Assembly (NCBI GenBank): GCA_031270725.1
Contig: JAISWS010000193.1
Coordinates: 1-37,727, forward strand
Source of the DNA: Syntrophomonadaceae bacterium
GTDB lineage: Bacteria; Bacillota; Syntrophomonadia; Syntrophomonadales; Syntrophomonadaceae
Reading direction: 5' to 3'
Length of the DNA stretch: 37,727 nucleotides
Both the position numbers and the translations under genes were made by a program. Position 1 is the stretch's first letter. The number at the start of each line of letters is the position of its first letter. The notes beneath the pieces are model-generated. The model searched no databases. It was not told the DNA's origin and saw only the letters and a program-made list of their open reading frames with translations. This document shows, in pieces, positions 10,074 to 35,682 of the stretch.

Positions 10074-10853
10074 TTATTGAGCAACCAGGCCGCCGTCAAC
10101 GGGCAAAGTAATGCCGGTGACATACGATGCGCCCGGAGAAGCCAGGAAAAGAACGGCTGCTTTTAATTCGTCGTCCGTTCCGAAATGCCCTACGGGTATA
10201 TAGTAATCGTTAAGTTTAGTATGGACCGCGCTGTTCATATCGCCCATATCGCTGCCAAACCATCCTGGAATCAAAGCGTTCACGGTAACATTCTTTTTGG
10301 CCCATTTAACCGCAAGGTCTCTGGTCAGACCTATAACGGCGGCTTTAGAAGCACTATAAGGAGGGGATAAAACAAAATCGGAGGCGAAGCCTACTAAACC
10401 GGTTATAGAAGAAATATTAACAATCCTTCCATAGCCTTGTCTGCTCATCATCGACCCTGCTTTTTGACACATTAACCACAGCCCGGTAAGATTAGTATCT
10501 ATTACCTGATGCCATTTATCTAAAGGATATTTAAATATAGGATCAGTCAGTACCACACCGGAGTTATTGACCAGAATATCTACTTTACCATATTCTTTAT
10601 TTACAAGTTCAAACAAAGCGTCTATCTCTTCTGGAACAGTCAAATCCAAACGAGCTGGAAGGACTTTGATACCAAGTTCTTTTTCCATTTTGGCAGCCGC
10701 TTCTTTACATTTATCGACTTTTCTGGCGGCTATAACTAAATTAGCGCCCGCTTCTCCCAGAGCATAAGCCATTTGTACTCCCAGACCATATGCTCCGCCT
10801 GTAACGATGGCTACTTGCCCGGATAAATCAAATAATTCTTTGTTAGTTTTCAT
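10074..10853 (-). CDS. Short-chain dehydrogenase/reductase (SDR), first copy
   Basis: 259 residues, classical SDR. Cofactor loop TGGAYGLG at 18-25, NNSG at 96-99, catalytic S148/S149 in NISS, Y166 and K170 in YSASK, and PVDGG near the end. After the second strand the sequence is IAARKVDK, where an Arg often goes with NADP(H) rather than NAD. The overall pattern resembles the group annotated as gluconate 5-dehydrogenase-like, but that name is used loosely and the substrate is unknown. GGAGG lies 8 bases before the ATG. It is transcribed away from the zinc alcohol dehydrogenase, from a sigma-54-type promoter about 200 bases upstream. Confidence 0.88.
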   Translation of the reverse strand: MKTNKELFDLSGQVAIVTGGAYGLGVQMAYALGEAGANLVIAARKVDKCKEAAAKMEKELGIKVLPARLDLTVPEEIDALFELVNKEYGKVDILVNNSGVVLTDPIFKYPLDKWHQVIDTNLTGLWLMCQKAGSMMSRQGYGRIVNISSITGLVGFASDFVLSPPYSASKAAVIGLTRDLAVKWAKKNVTVNALIPGWFGSDMGDMNSAVHTKLNDYYIPVGHFGTDDELKAAVLFLASPGASYVTGITLPVDGGLVAQ

Positions 10854-10928
10854 CTTTTTGCCTCCATAAAATAAATTATTTTAACATGGTGTATATTGTT
10901 TACACGAACGGAAGGTCACGCTAATTTA

Positions 10929-10961
10929 TCAAAATAATAAACGGCCGACCTTCAAGAACAA
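10929..10961 (-). other. Possible 10-codon leader peptide in the SDR 5' leader
   Basis: On the minus strand AGGAGG (10972-10967) stands 5 bases before a TTG that opens MFLKVGRLLF and then TGA. The RBS is perfect, yet no long frame follows, and the short frame overlaps one arm of the GAAGGTC/GACCTTC repeat. It may be a regulatory leader peptide or a chance RBS-like string. Confidence 0.25.
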
Positions 10962-11067
10962 ATTCACCTCCTACTATCATTATAAGTTATAAGAAAAACA
11001 TAAAAAATAATTTTCCTCAATTAAAAAAAGCGCAAGCTATTCTTATAGAGATTTATATTTTAATTAT

Positions 11068-11083
11068 TGCATGTAGCGTGCCA
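11068..11083 (-). promoter_or_regulatory. Sigma-54 (-24/-12) promoter for the first SDR gene
   Basis: Reads TGGCACGCTACATGCA on the minus strand. It matches the sigma-54 consensus TGGCACG-N4-TTGCW in all seven -24 bases and in TGC at -12, with the GG and GC pairs at the required 12-base step. Start of transcription would fall near 11057, about 200 bases before the SDR ATG. Confidence 0.75.
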
Positions 11084-11241
11084 GCTTTTAAGATCCAGCA
11101 GTAATAATTGTGTTTTCAAAGCCGCCGCGATGAAAATATAAAAGCGTTTTCTATCGAATAACGCGTAAATTCTTACTTTTTATAAAAAATAAAAAAAAAG
11201 AATAAACCGTTTGATTTTAAATTTTCTCAGCTTAATGTATG

Positions 11242-11283
11242 GCAAATAGGACATTGATAAGGTGAAACAACTGTCTTATTTGC
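11242..11283. promoter_or_regulatory. Upstream activator dyad A
   Basis: GCAAATAGGACA - N18 - TGTCTTATTTGC, an inverted repeat matching in 11 of 12 positions. It lies about 180 bp from the minus-strand SDR promoter and about 270 bp from the plus-strand ADH promoter, so one site could serve both. The same half-site with the same spacing recurs at 12943 and 24586. The likely binding protein is the sigma-54 activator encoded at 20954-22963 (inference). Confidence 0.7.
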
Positions 11284-11533
11284 TTCATAAATCGTTACAA
11301 AAACAGTAAATCCTTATTAAAAGCAACATATTTTTAAGCATATTATCGTCTGGCGGCGGCAAAGGCTCTCTTTTTATTAAGAAGGCCGGACAGACGCCGG
11401 GTGTTTAACATGTGTGCTGGAAAGTGGGGGCTTACTGCCGGATAAGCGTAACGAAAACTATTGTTCCATGGCCTTAAACAACAGGGAGTTTGTGCTGATA
11501 AGTAAAAACTTTTCAGCTTACTTTCAGATTATA

Positions 11534-11549
11534 TGGTATAAAATTTGCT
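11534..11549 (+). promoter_or_regulatory. Sigma-54 (-24/-12) promoter for the zinc ADH gene
   Basis: TGGTATAAAATTTGCT: TGG and TTGCT match the sigma-54 consensus, with GG (11535-11536) and GC (11547-11548) exactly 12 bases apart; the CAC of the -24 box is weak (TAT). It lies 134 bases before ATG 11683. Confidence 0.6.
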
Positions 11550-11682: not shown

Positions 11683-12735
11683 ATGAAGGCAGTTGTATTT
11701 CGCGCGAATAAGGATATCAGGATTGAAGAAGTAAGAGAAAGTAAGATTGAACGCATGGATGACGCGTTGGTCAGGGTTACGACTTCGACTATATGCGGTT
11801 CTGATATCCATATCAAAAATCATGGGGAAACAATGGGCATTTTACCGGGAACCGTCATAGGGCATGAATTTGTAGGGATAGTAGAAGAAACAGGGGAGTC
11901 GGTAAGCGGTTTCGCTAAGGGAGACAGAGTGGCGGTATCGTGTATATTCAATTGCGGCCAATGTTTTTATTGTAAAAAAGGCAATATTTCCATGTGTACC
12001 AGCGGCACGGTATTTGGCGGGAAGGCTGTAACTTCAGAAATTCCGCACGGCTGTCAGACGGAGCTGGTCAGAATACCCTATGCTTCACAGATTATGCACA
12101 AAATACCCAACCATCTGTCAGATGATGACGTATTGTTTGTGGGGGATATACTTTCCACAGGCTTTTTCGGCGCTGAACGCGGAGAAATAAAACTCGGGGA
12201 TACGGTGGTAATAATCGGCGCCGGGCCTGTCGGTATGTGCGCCGCGATAGGAGCTAAATTATTAGGGGCCGCGCAAATCATTATGCTGGACATTGAAGCG
12301 TACCGGCTGCAAATCGCCAGAGAGCAGAATCTGGCGGATATGGTCGTCAACATTAAAACCGAAGACCCGCTGCAGGCCATTCTGGATGCTACCGGAGGCA
12401 GGGGCGCGGATGTAGTAATTGAGGCCGTAGGCAGCTCCCAAAGTTTTCAAGATGCATTCAATTATGTCCGCGCCGGCGGGACAATTTCTTTGCTGGGGAT
12501 ATACACAGCGGAAACTACGTTCGCTATCAACAAGCACTGGCGCAAAAATCTGATTGTCAAAATGGGCTTGGTGGAAGTGAAAAATATGGGCTCTTTGATA
12601 AATCTGATTTCTTCCGGCAAAATTGACACGCACTTTTTGATTACCCATTCTTTCCCCTTTGCTCAGGTAATGGAAGCCTATGACGTAATGGAAAAACGTT
12701 TGGATAACGTGATGAAAGTAGTGCTGAAAATGTAA
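11683..12735 (+). CDS. Zinc-dependent alcohol dehydrogenase (MDR family)
   Basis: 350 residues from ATG 11683, set by GAAAGGGG at 11667-11674; an upstream in-frame TTG (11665) overlaps that RBS. Catalytic-zinc residues C38 (TICGSD) and H61-E62 (GHEF); structural-zinc cysteines C91, C94, C97 and C105 all present. Rossmann loop GAGPVGMCA follows, then GGRGADVVIEAVG. The family oxidises alcohols or polyols with NAD(P). Features such as LVEVKNMGSLINLISSGKID resemble secondary-alcohol and butanediol-type enzymes, but the substrate cannot be fixed. Own transcription unit with a sigma-54-type promoter upstream; part of the catabolic island. Confidence 0.9.
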   Translation: MKAVVFRANKDIRIEEVRESKIERMDDALVRVTTSTICGSDIHIKNHGETMGILPGTVIGHEFVGIVEETGESVSGFAKGDRVAVSCIFNCGQCFYCKKGNISMCTSGTVFGGKAVTSEIPHGCQTELVRIPYASQIMHKIPNHLSDDDVLFVGDILSTGFFGAERGEIKLGDTVVIIGAGPVGMCAAIGAKLLGAAQIIMLDIEAYRLQIAREQNLADMVVNIKTEDPLQAILDATGGRGADVVIEAVGSSQSFQDAFNYVRAGGTISLLGIYTAETTFAINKHWRKNLIVKMGLVEVKNMGSLINLISSGKIDTHFLITHSFPFAQVMEAYDVMEKRLDNVMKVVLKM

Positions 12736-12942: not shown

Positions 12943-12985
12943 GCAAATGAGACAATATTTCTAATGGGACAGGTGTCTCATTTGC
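12943..12985. promoter_or_regulatory. Upstream activator dyad B (possible second role as terminator)
   Basis: GCAAATGAGACA - N19 - TGTCTCATTTGC, 12 of 12 positions symmetric. The centre lies about 200 bp upstream of the sigma-54-type promoter at 13162. A GCC and seven T (12989-12995) follow, so as RNA it could also terminate the ADH transcript, although the 19-base loop and AT-rich stem are unusual for that. Its half-sites match dyads A and C, which are not followed by T-runs, and this favours a protein-binding role. Confidence 0.65.
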
Positions 12986-13161: not shown

Positions 13162-13177
13162 TGGCATAATAATTGTA
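13162..13177 (+). promoter_or_regulatory. Sigma-54 (-24/-12) promoter of the main catabolic operon
   Basis: TGGCATAATAATTGTA: TGGCA and TTG match the sigma-54 consensus at the correct spacing, but the -12 GC is GT. It lies 230 bases before the TTG start at 13392 and would drive the second SDR, the small membrane peptide, the transporter and the beta-oxidation genes. Confidence 0.55.
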
Positions 13178-13391: not shown

Positions 13392-14153
13392 TTGAATTTT
13401 GATTTAAGAATGGACGGCAAGGTAGCTATTGTGACCGGAGGCGCTATGGGATTAGGGAAAGGTGTTGCTAAAGGATTTGCGTCTTTAGGCGCGGATGTGG
13501 TGATTGCGGATATAAATGAGAAGGCCGGGCGGGAAACGGCCGACGCGATAGCAAAAGAGGGCGGCAAGGCCAGTTTTTATTCTCTTGACGTTACTGACAG
13601 CGGACAGTTTGAACAGATGGTAAAAGACACTACCGGTAAGCTGAAACGCATTGACGTTTTGGTAAATAACGCGGGGATAGCCACTAAAGCTGACTGTATC
13701 GATATGAAAGTAGAAGATTACCGGCGTATAATAGATATAAACCTGACGGGAGTCTGGATAGGCGGCAGAGCTGTGGCTCCGGTGATGATAGAGCAGAAAT
13801 ACGGAAAAATCATAAACATGTGTTCGCTTTTTGGGTTTGTAGCCCTCGCGGGCTTGAGCGCGTACGCGTCAAGCAAGGGCGGAGTAAGCCAGCTGACTAA
13901 AACGTTGGCTTTGGAGCTGGTTGACCATAATATTAACGTCAACGCGGTAGCTCCCGCTTATATAGAGACGGAGATGACAAACAACGCCCGTACCGACAAA
14001 GCGAGATTTGAGGACATATTAAGAAGGACCCCTAAAAACCGTTTGGGCACTATAGAGGAAGTGGTGGGGCCGGTAGTGTTTTTAGCTTCCGAACTGTCAA
14101 GTTTTATGGTGGGGGAGACTATGCTCGTGGATGGCGGTTGGACAGCCTGGTAA
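13392..14153 (+). CDS. Short-chain dehydrogenase/reductase (SDR), second copy
   Basis: 253 residues; TTG 13392 start with AAGGAGGG upstream. Classical SDR: TGGAMGLG at 15-22, D40 after the second strand (VVIADINEK), which points to NAD, NNAG at 92-95, S145 in NMCS, and Y158/K162 in YASSK; LVDGGW closes the fold. It is quite different from the minus-strand SDR at 10074, so this is not a recent duplication. First gene of the operon holding the transporter and the beta-oxidation genes, so it probably oxidises a hydroxy group on the imported compound or on a catabolic intermediate. Substrate unknown. Confidence 0.88.
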   Translation: MNFDLRMDGKVAIVTGGAMGLGKGVAKGFASLGADVVIADINEKAGRETADAIAKEGGKASFYSLDVTDSGQFEQMVKDTTGKLKRIDVLVNNAGIATKADCIDMKVEDYRRIIDINLTGVWIGGRAVAPVMIEQKYGKIINMCSLFGFVALAGLSAYASSKGGVSQLTKTLALELVDHNINVNAVAPAYIETEMTNNARTDKARFEDILRRTPKNRLGTIEEVVGPVVFLASELSSFMVGETMLVDGGWTAW

Positions 14154-20953: not shown

Positions 20954-22963
20954 CTAATAAATATTATATTTCTGCATTTTACGATACAAGCTGCTGCGGG
21001 AAATTTTCAGCAATTTAGCTACTTGGCTTCTATTGTTGGATTTTTTGCTTAAATAATACTCAATAAGCTGGCGCTCTTTTTCTTCATCTTCCTGAAGAAT
21101 AGATTTTTTCCATTTCAAAATACCGGTATTCATAGTAGCTTCTTGTATTTCCAGGGGAATCAAATCTAAAGTCAATGTATCGCTCACGCAGAGATTGATA
21201 GCTCTTTCTATGATGTTGTTCAATTCGCGGATATTTCCGGGCCAGTCGTAATTTATCAAGCAGTCGTACACTTCCGGTTTGACATGTTTTACGGTCTTGT
21301 TCAGCCGGTTCGATAAGGAATATACGAAATGCTCCACTAATAAGGGGATATCACCTTTCCGTTCCCGTAAAGCGGGAAGGTGGATAGAAATTACATTCAA
21401 CCGGAAATAAAGGTCCTGCCGAAAACTGTTGGCCTCAATTTGCTGCAGTAAATTACGGTTGGTGGCGGTAATAATTCTAACATTTACAGGGATAAAATGC
21501 TTGCCGCCCAAACGGATAATATTGCGTTCCTCAAGGACTCTTAGTAAAGACGCTTGCAAATCTATAGGCATTTCAGCGATTTCATCAAGAAAAATAGTAC
21601 CTTGATCGGCTAACTCAAATTTACCGGGATTGCCTCCTTTGCGCGCCCCTGTAAAAGCTCCTTCCTCATAACCGAATAATTCGCTGGAGATGAGCTCCCG
21701 TGGAATAGCGGCGCAGTTTATTCCTAAAAAAGGCTCGTTTTTCCTCGGGCTGGCGTTATGGATTGACTGCGCGAATAAATCTTTGCCGACGCCGCTTTCC
21801 CCAATCAGCAAAATGTTAGACGAATTGTCAGAGGCGATTTTAGCTTGCTCGACGGCTTTTAAAAAAACGCCGCTTTCGCCTACCATATCTTCAAATGAAG
21901 TTTTGGCCCGGGCGCCGACGACTTTGTTAATTATATTATTAGGCTTGTTCAATATTAATAAAGCGCCGTTTATTGAGTTGTCATCATCATATAATATGTC
22001 TTCATAAGGCGTACAGTTTATCATGAAACGTTTTTTCTGGCCATTTATTTTAATAGTCATGTTTTCGGCAAAAAATTTACTTTTAAATTGAATGGTTTTA
22101 TTGAGATATTCTTCGGTTATATCTCCTATTTCGCTTATGTGTTTACCGACCCAAAAAGAGCTTTCAAAGGGGGATAAGCCAAGCATTTTGCAAGCCTGAG
22201 TGTTTATGGTGGTTATTATTTGGTTACGGTCTATAGAGATTAACCCTTCCGACATAGCGTTAATGATGGCTGACTTGGCTACATTCATGAGTTTTAATTC
22301 TTTATAAAGTTTTGTTTTCAGGTGGTTCATATTTTTAAGTTCCAGTTCTCTTTCGATGGCTTTGGCCGACGCGACGGCCATACCCAAAGTATGGACATTG
22401 GAGTTTTGGTAAGAAGCGGTTAGATCCAGAACCCCGATGATATTACCGTGCTGGTCGTGAATAGGAGCCGCGGAACAAGTTGCTAAACAGTTATGTTTGC
22501 AGAAATGTTCATAACCGTGAACTTGAAAAGGCTTATCCAGTTTTAAGGCTAAACCGATAGCGTTTGAGCCCATAACATCTTCGGACCATTTAGAACCCTC
22601 AATAAAATTGGTGTAAGAAATGTACTTAATGTCGCTAGGATTGCCAAGCCGTTTCAGAATGTAGCCTTCCGCGTCTGCAAATACCACTCCGAATTTATCG
22701 CCCTTTGTGATATGATGCAACGTATTGAGAGTAGCCATAACCACGTCTAATACTTTTTGACTTTTAATTAACCGCTGATCTAAAGATTTTTTGTTTAATA
22801 TCTCAAAATTAGAGCGTTTGAATGGGTCAACACCATAAGCTTCGCTCCTAGCCCAGGAAGATATTATTTCTTTGTTTATTGTAACATCGTCAAAATTTTT
22901 CTCAACATGCAGTTTATGCCACATGCTAAGCATTTCTTTAGAAGTCATAATATGTTCGTGCAT
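20954..22963 (-). CDS. Sigma-54-dependent transcriptional activator, AcoR type
   Basis: 669 residues. In order: N-terminal sensor with a GAF domain (about 80-215), a PAS domain (about 230-340), a sigma-54 AAA+ domain (about 365-590) and a Fis-type helix-turn-helix at the end (NRSQVAKLLKISRSSLYRKM). Walker A GESGVGKD, the sigma-54 contact loop GAFTGA, Walker B TIFLDEIAEM and the WPGNIRELNN sensor II are intact, so it should be active. The GAF contains HFCKHNCLATCSAAP, with three Cys in a C-x3-C-x3-C pattern. The architecture is that of AcoR/acetoin-type activators sensing small alcohols or ketones. The island's sigma-54-type promoters and dyads are its likely targets. Confidence 0.93.
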   Translation of the reverse strand: MHEHIMTSKEMLSMWHKLHVEKNFDDVTINKEIISSWARSEAYGVDPFKRSNFEILNKKSLDQRLIKSQKVLDVVMATLNTLHHITKGDKFGVVFADAEGYILKRLGNPSDIKYISYTNFIEGSKWSEDVMGSNAIGLALKLDKPFQVHGYEHFCKHNCLATCSAAPIHDQHGNIIGVLDLTASYQNSNVHTLGMAVASAKAIERELELKNMNHLKTKLYKELKLMNVAKSAIINAMSEGLISIDRNQIITTINTQACKMLGLSPFESSFWVGKHISEIGDITEEYLNKTIQFKSKFFAENMTIKINGQKKRFMINCTPYEDILYDDDNSINGALLILNKPNNIINKVVGARAKTSFEDMVGESGVFLKAVEQAKIASDNSSNILLIGESGVGKDLFAQSIHNASPRKNEPFLGINCAAIPRELISSELFGYEEGAFTGARKGGNPGKFELADQGTIFLDEIAEMPIDLQASLLRVLEERNIIRLGGKHFIPVNVRIITATNRNLLQQIEANSFRQDLYFRLNVISIHLPALRERKGDIPLLVEHFVYSLSNRLNKTVKHVKPEVYDCLINYDWPGNIRELNNIIERAINLCVSDTLTLDLIPLEIQEATMNTGILKWKKSILQEDEEKERQLIEYYLSKKSNNRSQVAKLLKISRSSLYRKMQKYNIY

Positions 22964-23237: not shown

Positions 23238-24419
23238 TTATATGGATTCAACTATAAAAGCTACTCCAGGCCCGCCGCTGGCACATAAGGAAGCGCAGCC
23301 GTAACGGACGTTGCGCCGTTTCATTTCATTAATCAAAGTTATGATTAAGCGGCATCCGGTCGCTCCGACAGGATGTCCGATGGATACGCCGCCGCCTACG
23401 CCGTTCAGTATTTCCCAATCTATTTTGAGTTCCCGGTTTACGCCGAGTACTTGAGCGGCAAAAGCTTCATTTATTTCCCAATAGCCTATATCACTCTGCT
23501 GCAATCCGGCGAATTTCAAGGCTCTTTGTACAGCTGGCACTACGCTCATTCCCATTATTTTAGGATCCACACCGCCTGATGCGGAAGCTACTACGCGCGC
23601 TAAAGGTTTAATATTAAGCTCTTTAGCCTTGTCGGCTGACATCATGATAATGGAAGAAGCCGCGTCATTTAAACCGGAAGCGTTTCCGGCGGTTACGGTG
23701 CCGCCTTTTTTGAAAGCCGGTTTTAATTGTGCCAGAGCTTCAAGAGTAGTATTCGCTTTCACGTGTTCGTCAGTATCAAAAATGGTGGTCCCTTTTTTAG
23801 TTTTGACTTCTACAGGGACGATTTCGTCTTTAAACCAGCCTTTTTCAATGGCTTGGCTGGCTCTTTGATGGCTCATAAGAGCTAATTGGTCCTGTTCTTC
23901 TCTGCTTATGTTGTACATTTCAGCGATATTCTCAGCGGTAACCCCCATATGATAACCATTCCACGGGCATATTAATCCGCTGACAAACATAGAGTCCAGT
24001 AATGGTTCCCCATCGCCGAGGCGATAACCTCTGCGCGCTTTGTTAAGCACATAAGGCACATTGGTCATACTCTCGGTGCCGACAGCGGCGCCTATTTCAA
24101 CTTTGCCCAGCATAATTTCATGCGAAAGGATTTCGGCCGCACGCATTGAAGACGGACATTGCTGATGTACCGTCGCGGCGTAGGATTCAACTTTACAGCC
24201 CGCGTTCAAAGAGATAAGGCGCGCGATATTTCCAGGAACTCCGGCTTGACAGGTATGCCCGGCCACAATCGATTCTACTTGTTCGGGGGTGATGCCTGCT
24301 TTTTCCAGAGCGCCTTTAAAAGCGACGATACCCAAATCAATAGCGCTTACATCTTTAACGGCTCCAAAAAAGTCACCTACGGCGGTCCTTGCTCCGCCTA
24401 CAATTACTACTTCTTTCAT
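23238..24419 (-). CDS. Acetyl-CoA acetyltransferase (thiolase)
   Basis: 393 residues, normal length. It cleaves acetoacetyl-CoA (or a longer 3-ketoacyl-CoA) with CoA, the last step of the pathway in this island. Nucleophile C88 in HQQCPSSMRA, the His in GHPVGATG, and C379 in CASGGPG are all present. The nucleophile context QQCPSSM differs from the common NxxCxSG form, which may reflect a subfamily with its own substrate range. GGGAGAG is 8 bases before the ATG. It stands apart from the other beta-oxidation genes, on the other strand, with its own sigma-54-type promoter. Confidence 0.94.
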   Translation of the reverse strand: MKEVVIVGGARTAVGDFFGAVKDVSAIDLGIVAFKGALEKAGITPEQVESIVAGHTCQAGVPGNIARLISLNAGCKVESYAATVHQQCPSSMRAAEILSHEIMLGKVEIGAAVGTESMTNVPYVLNKARRGYRLGDGEPLLDSMFVSGLICPWNGYHMGVTAENIAEMYNISREEQDQLALMSHQRASQAIEKGWFKDEIVPVEVKTKKGTTIFDTDEHVKANTTLEALAQLKPAFKKGGTVTAGNASGLNDAASSIIMMSADKAKELNIKPLARVVASASGGVDPKIMGMSVVPAVQRALKFAGLQQSDIGYWEINEAFAAQVLGVNRELKIDWEILNGVGGGVSIGHPVGATGCRLIITLINEMKRRNVRYGCASLCASGGPGVAFIVESI

Positions 24420-24467: not shown

Positions 24468-24483
24468 AGCAATATACATGCCA
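24468..24483 (-). promoter_or_regulatory. Sigma-54 (-24/-12) promoter of the thiolase gene
   Basis: Minus strand TGGCATGTATATTGCT. It matches the consensus TGGCACG-N4-TTGCW at every defined base but one (C to T in the -24 box), with the GG and GC pairs 12 bases apart. The start of transcription would be about 36 bases before ATG 24419. This is the clearest sigma-54 promoter in the window. Confidence 0.82.
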
Positions 24484-24585: not shown

Positions 24586-24627
24586 AATAATGAAACAAAT
24601 GTGTCCCGAACATACTGTTTCATTTTC
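24586..24627. promoter_or_regulatory. Upstream activator dyad C
   Basis: AATGAAACA - N18 - TGTTTCATT: nine perfectly symmetric bases per arm (24589-24597 and 24616-24624), with partial symmetry beyond. The centre is about 125 bp upstream of the thiolase sigma-54-type promoter. Half-site and spacing match dyads A and B. The rest of the 393-base gap holds the panE promoter and no gene. Confidence 0.65.
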
Positions 24628-34241: not shown

Positions 34242-34509
34242 TCCCAGTTTGGAATCTACTGCTTTGAAACTTATGGAAGAAGCGGGTGAGTTAGCGCAAG
34301 TAATAGGTAAATTTCGGGGATTGAGCGGGGAAAAAGTGGTATATCCGGAAAGAGTTCTGGCGGAAGAGATTTCCAAAGAATTGCTGGATGTAGCGCAAAC
34401 AGCGGTAACGATGATGTTTGTCATGCAGGAACAATACGGAATAAACATAGAACAAATGCTGAAAGCCCATTTGCGAAAACTGGAAGACAAAGGGTATTTG
34501 TTAAAGTAG
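34198..34509 (+). CDS. MazG-like nucleotide pyrophosphohydrolase
   Basis: 103 residues. Single all-alpha NTP-PPase domain: the metal-binding pattern EExxE...ExxD is seen as LMEEAGELAQ (near 24-33) and EEISKELLDVAQ (near 61-72). These enzymes hydrolyse (d)NTPs to monophosphates and may clean the nucleotide pool. ATG 34198 with GGAGAAAGAAG just upstream starts inside comEB, giving a 44-base out-of-frame overlap; the next in-frame Met lies inside the metal motif, so a shorter start is unlikely. Length is right for the small iMazG/MazG-like group, not for full two-domain MazG. Confidence 0.85.
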   Translation: MENKILSLPKLNGLNPSLESTALKLMEEAGELAQVIGKFRGLSGEKVVYPERVLAEEISKELLDVAQTAVTMMFVMQEQYGINIEQMLKAHLRKLEDKGYLLK

Positions 34510-34584
34510 AGCGTCGTGTTATTTGATAATGTTTATTGAAAAAACCGGGATATGAATACAATTAAACAGTAAATTAAGATAAAC

Positions 34585-34600
34585 TGGCTTATATTTTGCA
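34585..34600 (+). promoter_or_regulatory. Sigma-54-like element upstream of the ATP synthase operon
   Basis: TGGCTTATATTTTGCA: TGGC and TTGCA with GG and GC exactly 12 bases apart. It lies 83 bases before atpI. No dyad like those in the catabolic island is near. It may be a real sigma-54 promoter or a chance match in AT-rich DNA. Confidence 0.3.
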
Positions 34601-34667
34601 GGATTTATTATTTTTATGGCGAATAAGCATGTGATAAAGGCGCGGTAAAGGCTTGGAGACAATGTTT

Positions 34668-34883
34668 ATGTCTGAAAATAAAAAAACAAATTGGGCAAAA
34701 TCTCTGAGCGAAGCGATAAATTTTACCACTTCTATCGCCGCAGCGGTTGGAGGGTGCGGTTTTTTAGGATATTATCTGGATAAGAAATTTGCTACCAATC
34801 CATGGTTTACTCTTTTAGGAAGCGTATTAGGATTAGCTGCGGCAATGAAAATAATGTGGGATAAAATGAACTCCAAAAAATAA
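34668..34883 (+). CDS. atpI: ATP synthase-associated AtpI/AtpZ-type membrane protein
   Basis: 71 residues from ATG 34668; GGAG at 34654-34657 fits this ATG or ATG 34662, and less well TTG 34653. Two membrane spans with the loop GYYLDKKFATNPWFTLLGSVLGL, the signature of the AtpZ/AtpI family. These small proteins help assemble the c-ring or carry magnesium or calcium next to the F1Fo ATP synthase; the role here is by family and position. It is first in the atp operon, 115 bases before atpB. Confidence 0.85.
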   Translation: MSENKKTNWAKSLSEAINFTTSIAAAVGGCGFLGYYLDKKFATNPWFTLLGSVLGLAAAMKIMWDKMNSKK

Positions 34884-34998
34884 TCCTGCTTAATATTTAA
34901 TTTATATTAGGGATTTTTGTATAATTTGGGTAATAATAGCTTTCATAAGGATAAAACGCTGTTTTTGCCGAAAAACCCTTAGAAAGGAGGGAAATCTG

Positions 34999-35682
34999 AT
35001 GATTTTTGGAATGTGGGACGGCACTTTTTTCAGGCTGGGGCCAATTCCCGTGGATCATTTAATTGTAACACAGTGGGTCATCATAGCGCTCATTGGTATA
35101 ATAGCTTATGCCGCTACCAGAAACATGCAATTAGTTCCTAAAGGGTTGCAGAATGTTTTTGAGATGGCAATTGTTTGGACTTACGAATTTTTTACTCAGC
35201 TTATGGATGAAGAACGCGTAGCGAAAAAATGGGCACCATTGCTTACTTCTTTTTTCTTTTTTATTCTGTTGAGCAATTACAGCGGTTTGATTCCCGGCGC
35301 GGCTCATGTCGAGGGCTTTCAGCCGCCGACGAGCAACTGGAATGTTACCATGGCTTTGGCGCTTGTGACCTTTTGCGCTGTCCATATCGCGGGTATTTCT
35401 GAACATAAGTTGCATTATTTAGGGCATTTTATAAGCCCTAGTGTGGCTATGCTGCCGCTTAATATTATTGAGGAAGTAGCGCATCCGCTGTCCCTGACTT
35501 TCCGGTTATTCGGCAATATATTCGGAGAAGAAATGGTTATAGCGTTTCTGCTGTTTTTAGCGCCTTTTTTGATCCCGTCTTTGATAATGGGATTGAGTTT
35601 ATTGCTGGGCGCAATCCAAGCTATAGTTTTTACTATATTATCAGCGAGCTACATTGGCAATGCCGCAAGTAAAGGGCATTAA
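34999..35682 (+). CDS. atpB: F1Fo ATP synthase subunit a
   Basis: 227 residues, five to six membrane spans. It forms the ion half-channels against the c-ring. The essential arginine is R169 in SLTFRLFGNIFGEE; the C-terminal IQAIVFTILSASYI is the other conserved helix. LLSNYSGLIPG earlier is also typical. GAAAGGAGGG directly upstream gives a very strong start at ATG 34999. Confidence 0.97.
   Translation: MIFGMWDGTFFRLGPIPVDHLIVTQWVIIALIGIIAYAATRNMQLVPKGLQNVFEMAIVWTYEFFTQLMDEERVAKKWAPLLTSFFFFILLSNYSGLIPGAAHVEGFQPPTSNWNVTMALALVTFCAVHIAGISEHKLHYLGHFISPSVAMLPLNIIEEVAHPLSLTFRLFGNIFGEEMVIAFLLFLAPFLIPSLIMGLSLLLGAIQAIVFTILSASYIGNAASKGH

Follow-up and report, generated by a model that had tools for sequence, protein, structure and literature searches.

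A likely one-enhancer, two-promoter sigma-54 control region between SDR and zinc-dependent alcohol dehydrogenase genes of a Syntrophomonadaceae bacterium

We analyzed a stretch of 37,727 nucleotides (hereafter, the window) from the genome of a member of the Syntrophomonadaceae, a family whose known members include fatty-acid oxidisers living in syntrophy. Two oxidoreductase genes, SDR1 and ADH, are arranged divergently in this window and are separated by an 829-bp intergenic region. The features of this region, and of the gene cluster to its right, are as follows.

10074–10853, minus strand: SDR1, an SDR-family oxidoreductase (Pfam adh_short_C2/adh_short), the proposed leftward target gene
11068–11083, minus strand: predicted −24/−12 element of the SDR1 promoter, TGGCACGCTACATGCA
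11242–11283, no strand: candidate shared upstream activator site, a 42-bp dyad with 12-nt arms, GCAAATAGGACA-N18-TGTCTTATTTGC
11534–11549, plus strand: predicted −24/−12 element of the ADH promoter, TGGTATAAAATTTGCT
11683–12735, plus strand: ADH, a zinc-dependent medium-chain alcohol dehydrogenase (Pfam ADH_N and ADH_zinc_N), the proposed rightward target gene
12943–12985, no strand: second copy of the candidate activator site, GCAAATGAGACA-N19-TGTCTCATTTGC, preceding SDR2 and the operon that follows it
13162–13177, plus strand: putative −24/−12 element of SDR2, TGGCATAATAATTGTA, with GT instead of GC at −12
13392–14153, plus strand: SDR2, the first gene, followed by MFS transporter, hbd, crt and CoA-transferase genes
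20954–22963, minus strand: sigma-54 activator (EBP) and proposed dyad binder, with GAF (PF01590), PAS (PF00989), AAA+ (PF00158) and Fis-type HTH (PF02954) domains
23238–24419, minus strand: thiolase (acetyl-CoA C-acyltransferase; TIGR01930 above cut-off), upstream of the EBP gene
24468–24483, minus strand: predicted −24/−12 element of the thiolase promoter, TGGCATGTATATTGCT
24586–24627, no strand: degenerate copy of the candidate activator site upstream of thiolase, with six mismatches to the dyad consensus

The SDR1 reading frame begins with an ATG at 10853; its nearest NCBIfam model is PRK08213, gluconate 5-dehydrogenase, with a score under that model's cut-off, and its nearest solved structure is 1vl8. 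ADH begins with an ATG at 11683, preceded by GGGGATTGGGAA, and its nearest PDB entry is 5yln. The ADH residues typical of zinc ligands (C38, H61, E62, C91, C94, C97 and C105) are invariant among its orthologs. Farther rightward, the gene order is SDR2, MFS transporter, 3-hydroxybutyryl-CoA dehydrogenase, enoyl-CoA hydratase, CoA-transferase and acyl-CoA dehydrogenase; the best model for the CoA-transferase is butyryl-CoA:acetate CoA-transferase, again under the model's cut-off. Beyond the acyl-CoA dehydrogenase gene, EBP and thiolase are encoded on the opposite strand. In Syntrophomonas wolfei, the zinc dehydrogenase Swol_1727 is reported to be abundant only in methanogen co-culture (PMC4324140).

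A sequence-only reading of this DNA had proposed that two near-perfect −24/−12 elements face away from each other around a dyad, and that one bound activator could switch on both genes through DNA loops of different length. The minus-strand element at 11083–11068 is present, with an intact GG-N10-GC core and a single mismatch to TGGCACN5TTGC. The plus-strand element lies where it had been placed and likewise keeps GG-N10-GC, but with two mismatches the description of it as near-perfect was generous, and this promoter is weak (GGTAT). The elements do point outward around the dyad, each toward its own gene, and would be expected to give transcription starts at about 11056 for SDR1, with a 5′ UTR some 200 nt long, and at about 11561 for ADH. 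Measured centre to centre, the dyad is 187 bp from the SDR1 promoter and 279 bp from the ADH promoter, which is consistent with loops of unequal length.

Several observations concern the DNA to the left of the dyad. In the SDR1 5′ UTR (window 10905–10985, minus strand), an unusually good Shine-Dalgarno-like sequence, AGGAGGTG, precedes the SDR1 start by about 120 nt; after it come what may be a short ORF (TTG TTC TTG AAG GTC ...) and a hairpin, GAAGGTC...GACCTTC. By eye, GGGGGTG is seen in the corresponding 5′ UTR of the sister species (G001), where the stem appears to be compensated; in that of a Syntrophomonas MAG from another genus (G067), AAGGAGGTG occurs together with a different hairpin. 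This stretch is possibly a leader or attenuator. An Rfam search of the window gave zero matches, and we rejected the idea that the 5′ UTRs contain a riboswitch or another RNA of known type. Between the dyad and the SDR1 promoter, the block GATGAAAATATAAAAGCGTTTTC (11130–11152) is identical at 23 of 23 positions in the sister species and is the most conserved of the intergenic stretches tested in that comparison. It includes ATAAAAGCGTTTTCT, one mismatch from a cre site, but we dropped CcpA control because the CcpA model matches nothing in the genome.

Lone matches to the sigma-54 consensus mean little, since the window holds 31 sites with at most two mismatches and 30 are expected. We also evaluated sites with a consensus score devised for this analysis (threshold of at least 13), taking expectations from shuffled windows. 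At this threshold, 1.9 sites are expected per shuffled window, corresponding to about 0.04 per 829 bp; the intergenic region contains two, each facing its own gene. A search of the whole 2.08-Mb genome for TGGYAYN5WTGCW gives 21 sites, versus 13 for a reversed control, and three of these 21 sites fall inside the window, all aimed at genes of the SDR/ADH cluster. The intergenic DNA of the window has five sigma-54-like sites in total, four of which belong to the proposed regulon. A sigma-54-like element, CTGGCTTATATTTTGCA, is found at 34584–34600, in the intergenic region 34242–34998 upstream of an ORF at 34999.

We compared the region among the source genome (G000), the sister species and the Syntrophomonas MAG. 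Of the 74 positions that make up the two promoters and the dyad, 69 are identical between the window and the sister species; the remaining intergenic region is identical at 480 of 755 (Fisher p = 1e-8). The dyad alone is identical at 39 of 42. Taken singly, the 16-bp promoters are not outliers in this two-species alignment, with 12.7% of same-length windows equally conserved; the dyad is one (3% of same-length windows). The SDR1 promoter has the counterparts TGGCACGTTACATGCA in the sister species and TGGCATATCTCGTGCA in the MAG, and the ADH promoter has TGGTATAGAATTTGCT and TGGCATAAAAATTGCT, respectively; both promoters keep GG-N10-GC in all three genomes. Cluster proteins of the MAG are 69–89% identical to those of the window (73–89% for SDR1, ADH and EBP), and its cluster is rearranged such that thiolase-EBP adjoins SDR1/ADH, with the layout of minus element, dyad and plus element retained. 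The centre distance from the dyad to the SDR1 promoter is nearly constant (187, 186 and 197 bp in the window, sister species and MAG), whereas that to the ADH promoter varies (279, 249 and 85 bp). A fixed spacing on one side and a variable one on the other fit enhancer behaviour, as expected.

ADH orthologs of at least 73% identity have sigma-54 elements upstream. We rejected such control as a general trait of the ADH family, given that none of 24 homologs at 46–52% identity has an upstream sigma-54 element. One genome (G022) has an ADH ortholog with an excellent sigma-54 element, TTGGCACAAGTATTGCT, but it lacks both the SDR1 partner and the dyad, and that ortholog is therefore probably under a different EBP. 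A scan of the genome contigs for ADH found no additional ortholog. Another genome (G021) has a 50% ADH homolog with no sigma-54 element upstream.

The dyad is a recurrent motif. Nine sites in the three genomes align as (tgaa)GCAAATGAGACA-N18/19-TGTYTCATTTGC, each including an inner ACA just ahead of TGT, and every one of them has a sigma-54 element 85–279 bp away that faces a cluster gene. Besides the site between SDR1 and ADH, which is the sole dyad in that intergenic region in each of the three genomes, the copy at 12943–12985 has zero mismatches to the dyad consensus and is conserved in the sister species, where the SDR2 promoter reads TGGCATAATAACTGCA. The thiolase gene of the MAG is preceded by a near-perfect copy (two mismatches), and dyad copies in that genome also precede SDR2, SDR1/ADH and a maoC-crt-hbd operon. 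In Syntrophomonas sp. BL5_bin.17 (L073 17467–17725), a further activator site and a sigma-54 element, TGGCACGCCTTATGCA, stand before genes for a MaoC-like hydratase, crt and hbd, and this site extends the regulon in that species. The exact dyad pattern finds six sites among 54 genomes of the family, only in the source genome, the sister species and the MAG and all in the SDR/ADH cluster; a reversed-pattern control has no hits in the same 54 genomes. Relaxing the scan of the source genome to three mismatches adds two sites and one control site, which is noise.

In a genome of another family (G043), CAAATGGGACA-N17-TGTCCCATTTG and a sigma-54 element lie before an SDR1 ortholog, and the neighbourhood also encodes an EBP of 45% identity. 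At this locus (L124 8651–8765), a palindromic TGTCCCAWTTGGGACA pair precedes the sigma-54 element and the SDR1 ortholog. The pair is perhaps a diverged form of the dyad, and is suggestive only because it is embedded in a longer hairpin-like repeat. UAS of the NifA/FhlA type are inverted repeats of TGT and ACA with a spacer of 10–12 bp (TGT-N10-12-ACA). The main dyad reads ACA-N18/19-TGT, and some arms, not all, read TGA-N10-ACA (TGAAGCAAATGAGACA).

The EBP encoded in the window is the proposed binder of this motif. It carries GAFTGA and a Walker A sequence (GESGVGK), its Pfam domains score above cut-off, and its N-terminal sensor, AAA+ sigma-54 interaction domain and C-terminal Fis HTH make it a one-component Fis-type EBP. 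The genome also contains rpoN (PF04552, 207.9 bits, G000:C47). EBP orthologs of at least 74% identity are found in exactly those three genomes that contain the exact dyad, and other close matches reach at most 55%. The C-terminal HTH is identical at 48 of 48 positions in the sister species and 37 of 48 in the MAG; the other EBPs compared match at no more than 27 of 46. Thiolase is immediately followed by the EBP gene, both being on one strand (window 24419–20954), and the MAG has this order too. Given this adjacency, the sigma-54 promoter of thiolase could also feed the EBP gene, in positive autoregulation.

With considerable confidence, we interpret the SDR1–ADH region as a control region in which divergent sigma-54 promoters flank a single enhancer, belonging to the regulon of the window's EBP. 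The comparative evidence supports the earlier proposal of one activator site for the SDR and zinc ADH promoters, and this conserved site very probably serves both. At the sequence level, the elements, their conservation, the shared motif, its co-occurrence with the EBP and the presence of rpoN are observed directly; EBP binding, looping, transcription starts, which activator is involved, joint induction and a metabolic role are inferred. The comparative sample is small, as the system is present in just three genomes and two of these belong to one genus. In the proposed mechanism, the EBP (22963–20954) would sense a signal via its GAF and PAS domains and bind the dyad at 11242–11283 through its Fis-type HTH. 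There it would oligomerise, loop the DNA to sigma-54 RNA polymerase at the leftward (187 bp) and rightward (279 bp) promoters, and spend ATP to open both. It would also act at the sites before the SDR2 operon and thiolase, and SDR1, ADH, SDR2, the MFS transporter and the C4 beta-oxidation enzymes would thus form one regulon. The sequence-only reading omits both this cognate activator gene in the window and the multi-operon regulon of the dyad.

Other explanations of the region can be weighed against the same data. It is improbable that the dyad serves one promoter only, the other gene being decayed, sigma-70-driven or fed by a different site. The departure of the plus element from consensus and the swing in its distance from the dyad would suit this arrangement, as would the nearly fixed distance of the minus promoter, but the plus element is retained in the sister species and is a better match in the MAG, and none of the three intergenic regions offers another dyad. 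Binding of the dyad by another EBP of the genome has, in our estimate, a slim chance. Four EBPs of the genome, that of the window and three others, have a sigma-54 interaction domain at full strength, and the C76 EBP, the nearest paralog of the window's EBP, is 52–55% identical across the aligned part. However, the HTH region of the C76 paralog matches at only 22 of 45 positions, the dyad tracks the ortholog of the window's EBP across genomes, and dyad and EBP lie in one cluster. Chance resemblance of the −24/−12 matches and the dyad is strongly disfavoured and hardly credible: although the count of two-mismatch sites in the window equals expectation, this explanation is opposed by the conservation, the presence of the motif at nine places and its genome-wide specificity.

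A variant of the shared-enhancer interpretation, which we regard as possible though doubtful, is that a single EBP hexamer contacts one promoter at a time, so that the dyad divides activation between SDR1 and ADH according to loop length and phase, instead of switching both genes on to the same degree. The contrast between SDR1 spacings of 187, 186 and 197 bp, about one helical turn apart, and ADH spacings of 279, 249 and 85 bp would then tune the ratio between species.

A single EBP serving two promoters has precedents. In enterobacteria, zraP and zraSR have sigma-54 promoters that point outward within one intergenic region and are both activated by one EBP, ZraR, as proposed here for SDR1 and ADH (PMC4987338). 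ZraR is a two-component response regulator that controls its own operon, whereas the EBP of the window is a one-component GAF-PAS protein, encoded about 10 kb away and proposed for metabolic dehydrogenases. In Desulfovibrio, one EBP likewise controls the divergent sigma-54 operons of the orp system, but the orp promoters need IHF, which binds between them and the DVU2106 sites; in the SDR1–ADH region, from a Firmicute, a single activator site was found.

Closer in gene content are the sigma-54 butyrate and alcohol regulons of the Clostridiales, defined by comparative genomics and checked in vitro for sigma-54 binding, whose groups include CrbR, AdhR, BldR, SadR, XcgR and AhcR (PMC6615313). These share with our cluster one-component Fis-type EBPs, sigma-54 promoters and thl/crt/hbd/bcd or alcohol dehydrogenase genes; compared by gene content, none of the 39 groups listed there has the gene set of the window. 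The scope of that study is the Clostridiales, and our window is from the Syntrophomonadaceae. In those regulons, UAS usually lie 100–250 bp from the promoter, a range that the ADH promoter slightly exceeds at 279 bp, and most regulons have several UAS copies (PMC6615313).

Because such precedents exist, and because the Clostridiales study lists no group with this gene content, the divergent pair is a switch of known type, and the region is a new, well-supported example of it. Two promoters at unequal distances from one enhancer, with one distance changed between species, provide a natural test of enhancer sharing. For syntrophic Firmicutes, the analysis defines an apparently so far undescribed EBP regulon and its DNA motif, and assigns a proposed activator to an uncharacterised dehydrogenase/beta-oxidation gene set.
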